From: a virus
Length of the DNA: 64,000 nucleotides
Reading direction: 5' to 3' (one strand)
IMG/VR virus record: IMGVR_UViG_3300045110_000102
Location: 1-64,000 of that record
Shown: positions 38,916-53,694 of the stretch, piece by piece
How positions within the stretch are numbered: the stretch's first letter is position 1
How the letters are laid out: the number at the start of each line of letters is the position of its first letter
Translations under genes and position numbers: made by a program
Notes under the pieces: generated by a model
What the model saw: only the letters and a program-made list of their open reading frames with translations
What the model was told of the DNA's origin: nothing
Databases searched by the model: none

Positions 38916-39557
38916 ATGACAACCATCGTCATCAGTTCGGGGCATGGAGCCAAGGTGCCGGGCGCGGACGGCATCATCAACGAAGTGCAGCAGGCCCGAC
39001 GCGTCGTTGATGCGCTGGCTGCGGAGTTGGAGTCGCGTGAGGTCAACGTGATCGTGTTTCACGACGACACCTCGACCAGTCAGGGCGAGAACCTCAACAC
39101 CATCGTTGCGGCGCATAATCGCGAGACGCGCGATCTCGACATCAGCGTGCACTTCAATGCGTTCGAGCAGCGCGAGGGTCCGGTCGGCACGGAGGTCTGG
39201 TACATCAGCCAGAAGAATCTCGCCGCGCAATTGTCGGCAGCGATGGCTGACGGTGGTGACTTCATTGATCGCGGCGCGAAGTACACCGATGATTTGAAGT
39301 TTCTCAACTCGACGAATAAGCCAGCCGTGCTGCTTGAGGTCTGCTTCGTGGACAGCGAGGAGGACTGCCGACTGTACGAGATGAACTTCACCACCATCAT
39401 CGAAGCGCTGGCTGACGTGTTCGCCGAGGGCGAGGAAGAGATCACCGAGCCGGTGCCGCCGCCGGGCGAAGAGATCATCCCGCCGCGCGTGGACATCTCG
39501 GTCAGCGGTGATGTGCTGATCTACGTCAACGGCGATCAGGTCGGCACGAAGGGTTGA
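38916..39557 (+). CDS. N-acetylmuramoyl-L-alanine amidase (Amidase_3)
   Basis: A 213-residue endolysin-type protein. Zinc ligands are visible in the Amidase_3 order: His10 (SSGHG), Glu23 (INE), His79 (SVHFNA); the catalytic Glu is Glu141 (LLEVCFV). It cuts the amide bond between the glycan strand and the stem peptide. There is no signal peptide. The last 50 residues are a Pro-rich linker and a short strand pair (DISVSGDVLIYVNGDQVG). GGGAGA lies upstream. It starts the lysis cluster and is followed by a second lysin. Confidence 0.85.
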   Translation: MTTIVISSGHGAKVPGADGIINEVQQARRVVDALAAELESREVNVIVFHDDTSTSQGENLNTIVAAHNRETRDLDISVHFNAFEQREGPVGTEVWYISQKNLAAQLSAAMADGGDFIDRGAKYTDDLKFLNSTNKPAVLLEVCFVDSEEDCRLYEMNFTTIIEALADVFAEGEEEITEPVPPPGEEIIPPRVDISVSGDVLIYVNGDQVGTKG

Positions 39558-39561
39558 AGCC

Positions 39562-40125
39562 ATGCCAAATGAAACGCTGGTCATCTCCGTCGCTGGCGCG
39601 AACCTGATCAAGCACTTCGAGTCGTGTTTGAAGAAGAGCGGGCCGGATCGATTCACCGCATATAAATGTCCAGCGGGAGTCGCCACCATCGGATGGGGCA
39701 CGACATCGGAGAACGGGCACAAGATCACGATGGGTCTGGTGTGGTCGCAAGCGCAATGCGATGCCGCGTTCCTCAACGACATGCACGTCTTCGAGTCCGA
39801 CGTGCGCCGTCTCGTCAAGGTGAAGCTGGAGCAGTGGCAGTTCGATTCGCTCGTGAGCTTTTCATATAACTGCGGGGCCGGTGCGTTCGCTGGTTCGACT
39901 CTGTTGAAGAAGGTGAACGCGCAGGACTTCGATGCGGCGGCGCTGGAGTTTCACAAGTGGTGCAAGGCGAAGGGCAAGAAGCTCGATGGGCTTGTGCGCC
40001 GACGCGCGAGCGAGTCGCTGTTGTTTCAGAACATTGCGGATGAAGACTACGACGGCAAGCCTGACAAGATCATCAAGCCGCTCGATGATCCTATGCCGCA
40101 ACATGTGGACAAGCCGTCTCATTGA
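39562..40125 (+). CDS. Endolysin, GH24 lysozyme
   Basis: A 187-residue lysozyme of the phage GH24 family, which hydrolyses the glycan chain. Glu20 (IKHFES) is the catalytic acid. The family's Asp/Cys and Thr sites appear as Cys36 (YKCPAGVATIGWG) and Thr48 (WGTT), the P22-like E-C-T version. The structural motif VSFSYNCGAGAF and the C-terminal LVRRRASESLLF are typical. There is no signal or anchor segment, so export would depend on a holin. The C-terminal 30 residues are a polar extension. Confidence 0.87.
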   Translation: MPNETLVISVAGANLIKHFESCLKKSGPDRFTAYKCPAGVATIGWGTTSENGHKITMGLVWSQAQCDAAFLNDMHVFESDVRRLVKVKLEQWQFDSLVSFSYNCGAGAFAGSTLLKKVNAQDFDAAALEFHKWCKAKGKKLDGLVRRRASESLLFQNIADEDYDGKPDKIIKPLDDPMPQHVDKPSH

Positions 40126-40476: not shown

Positions 40477-40568
40477 GTTTGTGCTGGCTCTCGATCATCG
40501 TCGCGCTGATGGCTGGCGGGATCGCGGGCGTACTGGCGATGGCTGTCGTGAAGATCGCGAAGGACTGA
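40470..40568 (+). CDS. Tiny membrane peptide (32 aa)
   Basis: ATG overlaps the previous gene by 7 bases and AAAGG touches it. The product (MLSLCWLSIIVALMAGGIAG, then VLAMAVVKIAKD) is a single hydrophobic helix with a basic end. It stops two bases before the operon terminator. Real expression is uncertain. Confidence 0.35.
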   Translation: MLSLCWLSIIVALMAGGIAGVLAMAVVKIAKD

Positions 40569-40569
40569 A

Positions 40570-40600
40570 GGCCCGGGCTCATCACCCGGGCCTTTTTATT
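40570..40600 (+). terminator. Rho-independent terminator of the late operon
   Basis: Perfect 8-bp stem GGCCCGGG/CCCGGGCC with a 7-base loop, followed by TTTTTATT. It ends the long rightward late transcription unit and faces leftward genes that begin to its right. Confidence 0.85.
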
Positions 40601-40655: not shown

Positions 40656-41300
40656 TTACGCCGTGACGGTGCGCCGTCGGCGTGCGAGCGCGAGCAGACC
40701 ACCGCACGCTGCGATGAGTCCGGGGATGCCAGCGCCAGCGACGGGGCCGGGCACTGCAAGCGGCGTGACGTCGATGCGATAGTGCTCGAAGTCAGTGATC
40801 GTGCCGCCGACATTTACGAGGTCGAGGTCCCAGATGCGTTCGCCGTTGATCGCTTGGAAGTCGAATCCGTTCTGTCCGTTGCCGAGAGCGTAGCCGCCGA
40901 AGTTAAAGTTCTTGAAGGTGCCGTCAGCTTCCAGCGCGGTGACGTGGAAGAACATACTGCCGCTGCCTTTGATGGAAAAGATTTCCCGCGTGACAGCAAG
41001 CTGTCCGATGTTGTCGCGATCAAAGATCGAGATGTCGAGGTCGGACGTGTTCACGATCTTGATGTCGTTTCCATTTGCAGCGCCGCTGAACGCGCCGTTG
41101 CCAGAGAGATCGCGGAAGCGCACCACCTCATCGTTCTGTCCGTTGAGCCGACCGAGGATCAGGTTGGTGCTGGCGATGTTGGTGAAGATGACGTTGTTGC
41201 CGGTGCCGCCTTGACCGGTGGTGTCGATGATGATGTCGGCGAAGGCTGGCGTTGCCAACGCAGTGAGGATCGCCGCGAGGGCGAGCAGCTTGGTCTTCAT
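40656..41300 (-). CDS. Secreted protein with PEP-CTERM-like C-terminus (VPGPxxGAGxPGL type)
   Basis: A 214-residue protein read leftward. The Met start at 41300 gives a classic signal peptide (MKTKLLALAAILTALATPAFA, cleavage after AFA near residue 21); longer versions upstream lack it. The mature part is beta-rich and acidic (NNVIFTNI, LGRLNGQNDEVVRFRD, ANGNDIKI, FEHYRIDV). The C-terminus is VPGPVAGAGIPGL, a hydrophobic stretch, then RRRR: the tripartite sorting signal read by exosortase-like enzymes. It is clearly homologous along its length to the protein at 50891-51550. Surface attachment on the host, or modification of its envelope, is inferred. No exosortase gene is in the window. Confidence 0.8.
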   Translation of the reverse strand: MKTKLLALAAILTALATPAFADIIIDTTGQGGTGNNVIFTNIASTNLILGRLNGQNDEVVRFRDLSGNGAFSGAANGNDIKIVNTSDLDISIFDRDNIGQLAVTREIFSIKGSGSMFFHVTALEADGTFKNFNFGGYALGNGQNGFDFQAINGERIWDLDLVNVGGTITDFEHYRIDVTPLAVPGPVAGAGIPGLIAACGGLLALARRRRTVTA

Positions 41301-41762: not shown

Positions 41763-42293
41763 ATGCCTTACGTCACTGGATTCCTGAACGTTCACGAGGG
41801 CGGACAGCCCGACAACGCGCTGCCGGGTGGCGGCGGTCACCCATCGCAGGGACTGCCCGGCCACGGTCACCCGGGCCAAGGCCTGCCGATGCCGCCCAGC
41901 GGGACGCTGCCTGCGCCGCCGCCCGGCATGTGGCCGCCGCCGTCGCTCGGCAACCCGATCCTGCCAGCACCTCCCGGCACGCCGCCCGGCACCATCTGGC
42001 CATCGCCGGGACTCCCCGATCATCCGAGCAACGTGCTCCCGGGTGGCGGACACGCGAGCGGCCAGCCGATCCCGCCGCCGCCCGGCGGATCGATTGACAA
42101 CACGCTGCCGAGCGCGCCGCCGCAGGCAGGCAACGGTCTGCCGTCGAAGACCTACTGGATGATTTGCTACGCGCCGAATCTCGGATGGAAGTACGTCGCG
42201 GTCGATCCGTCGCTGACGCCCGGCCAAGGCTTGCCGCCTGCATCGGGCTCGATTGACAACACGCTGCCGCAGGCACCAGCGCCGAAGAAGTAG
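41763..42293 (+). CDS. Pro/Gly-rich low-complexity protein (176 aa)
   Basis: AAGGGAGAG about 5 bases before the ATG. Residues 15-125 are Pro, Gly, Asn and Leu repeats (GHGHPGQGLPMPPSG, GGHASGQPIPPPPGG). GSIDNTLP occurs twice, flanking a short globular segment with aromatic residues (TYWMICYAPNLGWKYVAVDP). It is an isolated rightward gene among leftward ones, with a strong ribosome site. No signal peptide. Function unknown; it may be a morphon or transferred gene. Confidence 0.6.
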   Translation: MPYVTGFLNVHEGGQPDNALPGGGGHPSQGLPGHGHPGQGLPMPPSGTLPAPPPGMWPPPSLGNPILPAPPGTPPGTIWPSPGLPDHPSNVLPGGGHASGQPIPPPPGGSIDNTLPSAPPQAGNGLPSKTYWMICYAPNLGWKYVAVDPSLTPGQGLPPASGSIDNTLPQAPAPKK

Positions 42294-50890: not shown

Positions 50891-51550
50891 ATGAGGAAGT
50901 TTCTATTAGCCTGCACTGCGCTGGCCGCGATGTCATTGCCTGCCAGCGCTTCGGTCACGTTCGAGTCCAAGCTCAGCGGTACGGGCGACAACGTGATCTT
51001 CAACTCCTTGAGCGGCGACGTCGCGCTTGGAAGTCTGAACGGTCAGCATCAAGGTCTCGTCGAGTTCAGGGCGCTCGATGTCTCGACATTCAATGCCGCT
51101 GCTAACGGCAACGACATCAAGATCAACGGCACCAACAATCTGCAGATCGAGGTGCATGATCAACTGAACTCGTTCGTCATCGGCACCACCACGCAGGTGT
51201 TCTCGGTGATCGGCACTGGCAACCTGTTCGCGTTCGTGCGTGCTGTTGACGCCAATGGAGTTGAAGAGCCGCTCTTCACCTTCGACCTTGGCGATCTCGG
51301 CAATGGCCACGCTCAGAACGGGTTCACGTTCCACGCCACCGACGGCGAGGTGATGACCCGGCTGACGTTGCTCGTTCAGGATGGCACGCTCACTGAGTTC
51401 GAGCACTACCGCATCGACGTTGGTGTGGTGCCGACGGCTGCAGTGCCTGAAGCATCGACGTGGGCGATGATGATCGCTGGCTTCATCGGCGTTGGTGGTC
51501 TGGCGATGCGCAAGCGTCGTCGCGAAGGTCTCACGTTCCGTCTCGCGTAA
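50891..51550 (+). CDS. Secreted protein with PEP-CTERM sorting signal
   Basis: A 219-residue protein. Signal peptide MRKFLLACTALAAMSLPASA (cleavage after ASA near residue 20). The mature domain is beta-rich (NVIFNSLSGDVALGSLNGQ, ANGNDIKINGTNN, FEHYRIDV) and is homologous throughout to the leftward gene at 40656-41300. The C-terminus has VPEASTWAMM at residues 185-194, a hydrophobic run, then RKRRR and eight more residues: the PEP-CTERM tripartite signal. Exosortase would anchor or release it at the cell surface. It sits among early genes, far from the structural operon, so it probably acts on the infected cell rather than the virion. Confidence 0.82.
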   Translation: MRKFLLACTALAAMSLPASASVTFESKLSGTGDNVIFNSLSGDVALGSLNGQHQGLVEFRALDVSTFNAAANGNDIKINGTNNLQIEVHDQLNSFVIGTTTQVFSVIGTGNLFAFVRAVDANGVEEPLFTFDLGDLGNGHAQNGFTFHATDGEVMTRLTLLVQDGTLTEFEHYRIDVGVVPTAAVPEASTWAMMIAGFIGVGGLAMRKRRREGLTFRLA

Positions 51551-51617: not shown

Positions 51618-53165
51618 ATGCTGCAGATTGTTGGATGGCTTCGCCAGAAGATCACCGCAGTCCTGTCCCGATACAAGCGCAAGACGATCCCACCGCCGCC
51701 AGTGCGAGCAACACCGAGGCCGCAACCAGAACCGAATTCAGAAGCCCCTGATGATCGCTTCGGCTACGGTCAGGAAGTGCCGCCCGGGCCGGAGCCTGAG
51801 CCGCCGCGCAAACGCGGACGCCCGGCAGTATCGGAAGAGATCAAGCTGCTTCGGAAGCGGCGTCTCAGTCACGACAAGTTCGTCACGCCACAAGGCGAGC
51901 TACCGCCGCCGGTCACGCGCGAGCCCAAGCCGCGCGTGGAGCGCGTCGAGTTGCCGCCGCTGCCCGAAGCTCCGCCGCCGAGGAAAACCTATGTGCGCGG
52001 CGTGCATCACGAAGACGCCGAGGATGTGCTGTACGACTCGACCGAGTTCTTCGGCATGTTCAACTTCAGAGACACGATCCTGCAGCAACTTGAACGCTAC
52101 TTCGTCTACCTCGCGCGCATGAAGAAGTACGACAAGGATTCCTACGGGCTCTATCGTCAGTACGGCGCAACGCTGCTGCCCTACATCGACACTGGCGCGC
52201 ATGACCGCCAAGGCATGAGCGAGGACGACAAGAAGAATCCACCGGGTCCGCTGCCGCTTATGCCGGAGTGGTTCAACCGCATGCGCCCGACGTTCGGCTG
52301 CTTCGTGTATGGCGCTGATCCCGAGACCGAGAAGTGGGAGCTTGTCAAAGACGCGGAGAAGAAGGGCTTCACGCGGTGGGTGCCGAAGTTCATGTACATC
52401 ACCAAGCACAAGAAGCCGCCGCCGACGCTGCAGATGAAGAGCGGCGGCGACATCTACTCGATGACCGTGTGGTGGGACCGACCGCATGATCCGACCAGCA
52501 AGCGCAAGTACGGCACGCCGACCGAGTTCGGAATGTTCGTCAGCAAGGACGGATCACAACTGATCGCGCTGCGCTCGCTGCGGACTCGCATCGTCAAGAT
52601 ATGGTCGAAGAAGCACAAGCAGAACGTTCGCTTCCCCGAGCGCGTGTGGGAGATACCCGACGAGTTCGAGTCGTGGGCGCGCAACAACGGCGAGGACGCG
52701 CAGCATTTTCTGGCGCGACTCTTCCTCACGTCGGTGGCGCGCATGTCGAACGTGCAGCGCGGCGTCGTGCGTGTCGCCGCCAGCAAGGACAACATGACCG
52801 CAGTGTTCTCGGTCAATCACGAGAAGATGGGATACTTCTTTCAGGATCGCGACATCCACATCGGCGACACCGGCGCGCGCAAGCGCATCTTCCACATGGT
52901 CAAGCCGCACACGCGCAGGGACGGGGCCGAGGTGCCGCTGCACTTCCGTGGCGAGCGCGAGTTCACGTGGGCTGGCTACGACGTGCGCATCACCGTGCCC
53001 GGGTGGGATCACCCGAACTTCGACGAGTTCGACGTCGGCACCATCGATGAGCACTGGCTTGATAAAAAGGAGTTGAAGGGGATGATGAACGAAGAAGAGC
53101 TTGGCCGCAGGCTGGCCGAGCGGATCAAGAAGGCGCAGCACGGGAGACACGATGGTCACCGATGA
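51618..53165 (+). CDS. Large unknown early protein with AT-hook-like motif (515 aa)
   Basis: AAAGGAGCAAGC before the ATG. Residues 25-120 are Pro/Arg/Glu-rich and include PPRKRGRPAVS near 63-71, an AT-hook-type minor-groove motif (GRP flanked by Arg/Lys). Residues 130-500 appear as one folded unit rich in Trp, Phe, Tyr and charged residues (FGMFNFRDTILQQLERYFVY, WARNNGEDAQHFLARLFLTS). The end is helical and basic. It overlaps the RuvC-like gene by 14 bases. Replication or host take-over role is possible. I do not recognise the family. Confidence 0.6.
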   Translation: MLQIVGWLRQKITAVLSRYKRKTIPPPPVRATPRPQPEPNSEAPDDRFGYGQEVPPGPEPEPPRKRGRPAVSEEIKLLRKRRLSHDKFVTPQGELPPPVTREPKPRVERVELPPLPEAPPPRKTYVRGVHHEDAEDVLYDSTEFFGMFNFRDTILQQLERYFVYLARMKKYDKDSYGLYRQYGATLLPYIDTGAHDRQGMSEDDKKNPPGPLPLMPEWFNRMRPTFGCFVYGADPETEKWELVKDAEKKGFTRWVPKFMYITKHKKPPPTLQMKSGGDIYSMTVWWDRPHDPTSKRKYGTPTEFGMFVSKDGSQLIALRSLRTRIVKIWSKKHKQNVRFPERVWEIPDEFESWARNNGEDAQHFLARLFLTSVARMSNVQRGVVRVAASKDNMTAVFSVNHEKMGYFFQDRDIHIGDTGARKRIFHMVKPHTRRDGAEVPLHFRGEREFTWAGYDVRITVPGWDHPNFDEFDVGTIDEHWLDKKELKGMMNEEELGRRLAERIKKAQHGRHDGHR

Positions 53166-53694
53166 ACGCTTCACTGGCACCGTGCTCGCACTCGATCTCG
53201 CAACCGTCGCTGGATGGGCGCTCGGCAAGCCGGGCTCGACTCCGAAGTTTGGCACCATGCGGTTCGGCAAGCCCGGCGCATCGCGCGCCTCGATCTATCG
53301 CGTCTTCCGCACGTGGATGGATGGATGGTCTGGCCCGGCGACGACGCCCGACCTGATCGTCTACGAGTTACCGATGCAGCCGCTGCACATGCGAGGCAAG
53401 ACTAGCATCGACACCAGCAAGATGTTGATCGGTCTCGCCGAGCATCTCGAAGAATGGTGCTTCGATGTTGTCGAGCTTCGCGAAGCAACGGTGGGTCAAG
53501 TGCGCTCGCACTTTATTGGGCAGAACCTGAAGTCGGAGTTCGCTAAGCCTGCGACGGTCGAGCGTTGCCAGATGTTGGGATGGAAGGTCAACAACACTGA
53601 CGAAGCTGACGCGTGCGCGCTGTGGGATTACCAGTGCGGATTCCTCCGGCCCGATCTCGCGCACAAGACCACGCCGCTATTCCGGCGCAGGTGA
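53152..53694 (+). CDS. RuvC-like Holliday junction resolvase
   Basis: A 180-residue protein with an RNase H-like fold pattern. Acidic active-site candidates are Asp15 (VLALDLATVAGWA), Glu72 (IVYELPM) and Asp150/Asp153 (NTDEADACALW), in RuvC order. It should resolve branched DNA before packaging. ATG 53152 has GGGAGA upstream and overlaps the preceding gene. It ends the first rightward early block. Confidence 0.78.
   Translation: MVTDERFTGTVLALDLATVAGWALGKPGSTPKFGTMRFGKPGASRASIYRVFRTWMDGWSGPATTPDLIVYELPMQPLHMRGKTSIDTSKMLIGLAEHLEEWCFDVVELREATVGQVRSHFIGQNLKSEFAKPATVERCQMLGWKVNNTDEADACALWDYQCGFLRPDLAHKTTPLFRRR

Follow-up and report, generated by a model that had tools for sequence, protein, structure and literature searches.

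Exosortase-dependent sorting is a widespread and poorly understood surface system of Gram-negative bacteria. The closest described counterpart of the locus reported here is the PEP-CTERM/exosortase (EpsH) system (Haft et al. 2006, PMC1569441), with which it shares a signal peptide, a C-terminal motif, a membrane helix and a basic end, in addition to matches with the general models and plausible hosts that carry both exosortases and EPS loci. The locus differs in being borne by a phage and in having PEA as its motif; the word phage does not appear in the text of PMC1569441. A second counterpart is the PEPxxWA-CTERM signal (NF035944) associated with XrtV (NF035943). The phage tail VPEASTWAMM resembles this signal and Bradyrhizobium homologs of the protein body carry PEPxxWA tails, although the phage protein scores 31.8 bits against a cut-off of 35. 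The FxDxF PEP-CTERM family (NF038126) is represented by another phage protein (L094, 11973-12545; 76.6 bits vs a cut-off of 50), whereas the protein studied here reaches 28.6 bits and hhalign finds no relation of its body to that group.

Phage superinfection-exclusion proteins of the membrane or surface are comparable in that they are also phage proteins placed on the envelope of the infected cell. We know of no such protein that uses exosortase sorting, and none was found in the literature searched. A sequence-only reading of this DNA had stated that no phage system built on the exosortase pattern was known, and this agrees with our search of the open-access literature, which found none (subscription papers and preprints lay outside its scope). 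As far as the literature searched shows, use of exosortase sorting by a virus would here be described for the first time.

The gene, its neighbours and its product

The window, the whole stretch of 64,000 nucleotides that was analysed, is part of an 80,644-base IMG/VR virus record (80.6 kb) from a contractile-tailed soil phage. The record encodes a major head protein, a contractile sheath, a tape measure, two endolysins, a RecT-like protein, exonuclease VIII, a primase and a helicase; the rest of it contains ORFs that we read as terminase and portal, and Rhizobium phages are among the cultured phages with the most similar head proteins (about 46%). The ORF at 50891..51550 (+) is real, with an ATG start, GGAG upstream and a TAA stop, and encodes a 219-aa, predicted exported protein with a PEPxxWA-like C-terminal sorting tail. 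Its neighbours are an upstream early phage gene (49792..50826, +), a downstream early phage gene with no PHROG or Pfam match (51618..53165, +) and a RuvC-like Holliday junction resolvase gene (53152..53694, +); relatives of the first and last of these lie upstream and downstream, respectively, of the family gene in three other loci (L021, L022 and L099). A sorting signal of a bacterial kind could mean that host DNA was wrongly joined to the phage contig. However, phage genes lie on both sides, related neighbours recur in other viral contigs and relatives of the protein are found in 114 viral contigs, and this explanation was rejected as having a negligible probability.

The N-terminus, MRKFLLACTALAAMSLPASA|SVTF, is by eye a Sec-type signal peptide (aa 1-20; 50891..50950, +) with an ASA|S site, and a signal peptide is also present in aligned relatives. 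A lipoprotein reading was rejected, since the only Cys is at position 8, too near the start and unconserved in relatives, leaving no lipobox. The mature beta-sandwich domain (NGNDIKI ... FEHYRID; 50951..51439, +) forms the body of the phage family and is followed by the C-terminal sorting tail (aa 185-211; 51443..51523, +), the protein ending in AVPEASTWAMMIAGFIGVGGLAMRKRRREGLTFRLA, in which AVPEASTWAMM precedes a membrane helix and RKRRR. AlphaFold, given 55 family rows, returned an all-beta domain and then a single C-terminal helix at 188-218 (pLDDT 89.8), which together with RKRRR supplies the C-terminal helix and subsequent basic cluster required of PEP-CTERM proteins.

Among the general models, TIGR02595 was passed at 17.9 bits (cut-off 16) and PF07589 barely so at 20.8 bits (cut-off 20.7). 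The signal peptide, VPEASTWAMM, hydrophobic run and RKRRR described in the sequence-only reading are thus confirmed by sequence, general models and the modelled helix, and its view that a phage encodes a PEP-CTERM-type protein within its early region is supported, with two passing models and phage genes on either side. The HMM check that it proposed came out in favour for these two models and against for NF035944, missed by 3 bits; the score for NF038126 also lay below its cut-off of 50. Near-invariant Pro-Glu-Pro is absent from the protein, which has PEA instead, while PEP is seen in relatives such as L035, L040 and L070.

The tail is not a product of chance, because dN/dS against close relatives is 0.13-0.19, indicating purifying selection, all 80 complete viral relatives have a tripartite tail, and AlphaFold places a helix at 188-218. 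Simple membrane anchors, too, are built from a helix and a basic end, and together with the missed narrow model this would fit a plain membrane-anchored periplasmic protein whose likeness to a sorting signal is incidental. This is very unlikely, however, as distinct motif classes are kept in 80/80 relatives, are matched between genes of one phage, and are shared with bacterial secreted proteins in exosortase-bearing genomes. As for the body, its resemblance to carbohydrate-binding modules, CBM29 among them, was weak in a structure search (E about 2e-3, TM no higher than 0.43). The BFVD fold matches had low TM-scores and were for the most part fibre-like beta proteins, which we do not take as function, and a PDB sequence search gave no significant match.

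A second family member and relatives in viruses and bacteria

The phage carries a second member of the family, absent from the earlier reading, at 40656..41300 (-). This paralog of 214 aa is 43% identical to the 219-aa protein and has a signal peptide, the same body and a tail of another class, so that the window phage holds one tail from each of two classes, PEPxxWA-like and VPGP. The paralog ends in VPGPVAGAGIPGLIAACGGLLALARRRR followed by TVTA; its tail (40659..40754, -) follows the pattern VPGPxxGAGxPGL and matched no NCBIfam model up to E = 1.

The paralog sits beyond two endolysin genes (38916..40125, +) on the opposite strand, and a terminator-like hairpin of 11 pairs followed by a T-rich run (40567..40595) lies between these genes and the convergent paralog gene; hairpin-type matches of this kind are not more frequent in the region than in shuffled sequence. 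Adjacency to endolysins would suit a lysis or release aid, loosening the EPS or the outer membrane as infection ends, and a gene group with an amidase-type endolysin was seen in the fetched DNA of 22 loci. By our own reading of the map, however, about 9 of 54 non-redundant contigs have that group at a distance of 4 kb or less, close to the expectation from position alone, and the gene at 50891..51550 sits in the early module, so we consider a role in lysis unlikely. The window also contains a proline/glycine-rich ORF at 41763..42293 (+) with repeated GQGLP-like units and no Pfam match. Elsewhere, a small protein with a hydrophobic end is often found near the family gene (18 loci, e.g. L047 10654-10920 and L084 7750-8046), the single member scanned having no PHROG match.

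Restricted to the mature domain, a scan recovered relatives in 114 viral contigs, of which 80 were kept. The same alignment run as a pattern scan against 84,980 prokaryote genomes gave 131 pattern matches and none confirmed, a result which, given that the patterns of the viral and genome scans differ, points to a rarity of close relatives among sequenced genomes and does not amount to strict absence. A profile search of 120 Bradyrhizobium genomes found one distant body relative (E 2.9e-5, for one genome), whose protein found a second; both are PEPxxWA-type proteins with AVPEPSTWAMMILGFAGVGF tails, and hhalign supports body homology between them and the phage family (96.9%). The search against phage and Bradyrhizobiaceae proteins suggested earlier was productive for viral contigs and for these two Bradyrhizobium relatives, and unproductive for INPHARED, where tblastn with the 219-aa protein gave no match. 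With a VPGP relative as the query, blastn matches were short and confined to mycobacteriophages, and a class-wide profile search was empty, which shows little for a sample without a positive control. One cluster merged the window family with an FxDxF group; we rejected this merger, as hhalign finds no relation and single linkage probably produced it.

The rarity of close body relatives in sequenced genomes in the pattern scan also speaks against lysogenic conversion, in which the protein would give a lysogen a benefit such as biofilm or floc formation. Bacterial PEP-CTERM genes have been linked to floc formation (PMC9850573), and a tyrosine integrase is present in 7 of the 36 records searched. 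Against this, none was found in the record of the window phage or in the 28 others. The lysogen phenotype raised in the sequence-only reading is thus less likely for this phage, and we regard lysogenic conversion as rather unlikely.

Tail classes across the phages

Sorting-type tails were found in 80 of 80 complete relatives and, by patterns of our own, were assigned to VPGP (54), PEPxxWA (14), VPLPA-like (9) and hybrid (3) classes. TIGR03370 (VPLPA-CTERM) stayed below its cut-off on the VPLPA-like tails scanned (e.g. 22.6 vs 25.35 bits for L044). The three hybrids (L081, L082 and L086) read AVPGPVAGVPEP..W, which resembles a PEPxxWA tail fused into one of the VPGP class, and the body of L086 is 91% identical to the window paralog.

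Along the body tree, at least 10 switches of tail class are counted, against a minimum of 3. At the DNA level, the tails of L009 and L024 are 90% identical and their bodies 57%, while the signal peptides of the window gene and L012, a shared module, are 95% identical and their bodies 51%, the L012 signal peptide belonging to an unrelated phage secreted protein. These sequence comparisons show that signal peptide, body and tail have had separate histories. In 12 contigs that hold a second secreted gene with a recognised tail, the two tails are of the same class in 12/12 (permutation p about 3e-4, a guide only, as some of the contigs may be related and 8 are VPGP/VPGP).

The exact VPGP-tail DNA pattern occurs in 12 stretches of the genome collection, all of them MAGs, on contigs titled Bradyrhizobium (6), Alphaproteobacteria bacterium (5) and Acidobacteriaceae (1), and in at least 119 stretches of viral contigs. 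Among the viral matches listed, 85 of 86 are C-terminal and have a basic end; the bodies that bear them are of several unrelated kinds. In other viral records (L013-L020), PEPxxWA tails were also seen on unrelated bodies, and the genes for these proteins may be those of phages or of host DNA at the edge of a prophage.

Matching tail classes within contigs and the same tail on several unrelated bodies would both be consistent with a decoy, whereby phage substrates flood the host exosortase and stop host PEP-CTERM proteins, and thus EPS or surface receptors, so that the body matters little. The bodies, however, are under strong purifying selection (the dN/dS range given above) and keep invariant residues at about 40% identity, and a decoy seems quite improbable to us.

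Host exosortases and the proposed sorting route

Exosortases were found with PF09721 in 16 of 120 Bradyrhizobium genomes, a positive outcome of the plausible-host check proposed earlier. At least 9 PEPxxWA proteins occur in 14 of these 16 genomes, and at least 8 in only 2 of the 104 others. XrtV is the nearest type for the one Bradyrhizobium exosortase that was typed (310.6 bits vs a cut-off of 313, from a partial sequence), and we take XrtV to pair with PEPxxWA, also in view of their co-occurrence in Bradyrhizobium genomes. The tail type spans more than one genus, and Bradyrhizobium is a plausible host only. A model match to the phage protein and an exosortase in plausible hosts both speak against dropping the sequence-only reading.

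The VPGP pattern was found in 3 of the 120 Bradyrhizobium genomes, and all three have a divergent, unnamed exosortase-family protein that is missed by PF09721 and found by TIGR04178 just above its cut-off. Homologs of this protein are present in 16 of the 120 genomes, with 56-100% identity in VPGP genomes and 26-50% elsewhere, and by eye the conserved Cys, Arg and His seem to be in place. In one genome (G060), the gene has in its vicinity EPS-export-like genes and a PrsT gene that passes TIGR02917, and is about 30-47 kb away from VPGP proteins. A small gene adjoins the divergent exosortase both there (G060:C2:2654000-2718000; L127, L128 and L149) and in G003:C491 (L150), with PrsT and EPS-type genes. 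The divergent protein of VPGP-bearing Bradyrhizobium is a candidate for a new exosortase class with its own signal. G002 encodes PEPxxWA as well as VPGP proteins, which makes it plausible that one host could sort the two tails of the window phage. No exosortase was found in 50 phage records, that of the window phage included, using PF09721, a model that misses the divergent type, on records many of which are fragments. The earlier suggestion that the phage would borrow a host exosortase is consistent with this result and with the enzymes of plausible hosts.

We consider it likely that 50891..51550 encodes a phage-made substrate of a host exosortase, with tails exchanged across phages to fit the host enzyme. 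Comparison supports well that a phage surface protein would be sorted in this way; we infer the cleavage itself, the benefit (exclusion or EPS remodelling) and the actual host. Judging from its position among recombination, primase and helicase genes, the protein would be made early in infection. It would then be exported by Sec through its signal peptide and, as sequence and model suggest, its C-terminal helix and RKRRR would anchor it in the inner membrane. A host XrtV-type exosortase may recognise VPEAST, cleave the protein and pass it to the outer surface or EPS, as the tail and the host co-occurrence suggest. Taken jointly, these four steps are in our view likely or slightly better than that. 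The beta-sandwich could finally act at the infected cell's surface, most likely by blocking further adsorption or changing the EPS layer, since early position, export and surface sorting make these the likeliest uses; that exclusion or EPS change is the purpose is a tentative proposal, to which we give somewhat less than an even chance. The paralog at 40656..41300 may follow the same route, its VPGP tail being read by a second, divergent host exosortase, and tails would be swapped across phages so as to fit the host enzyme.

More broadly, and with only a slight lean in its favour, phages of soil Alphaproteobacteria may keep a modular display in which a phage-specific surface domain and other secreted proteins receive tails exchanged according to the host exosortase: XrtV for PEPxxWA, an XrtD-like enzyme for VPLPA, and the unnamed divergent enzyme for VPGP. 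On this view, host type would be readable from tail class, and the VPGP tails would mark a sorting class not yet described, served by an enzyme of its own and seen mainly in viruses to date. Repeated tail exchange would amount to a natural experiment on exosortase specificity. It points to an as yet unnamed enzyme as the partner of the VPGP tail, and tail class could serve as a sequence-based hint to the hosts of soil phages, many of which have yet to be named.

Finally, we note that the phage record encodes a NusG-family protein (PF02357, 44.7 bits) outside the window (L139 8800-9447, equal to G000 about 71800-72447). NusG paralogs can act on bacterial surface-polysaccharide operons, and it is possible that this phage gene is linked to the same EPS theme.
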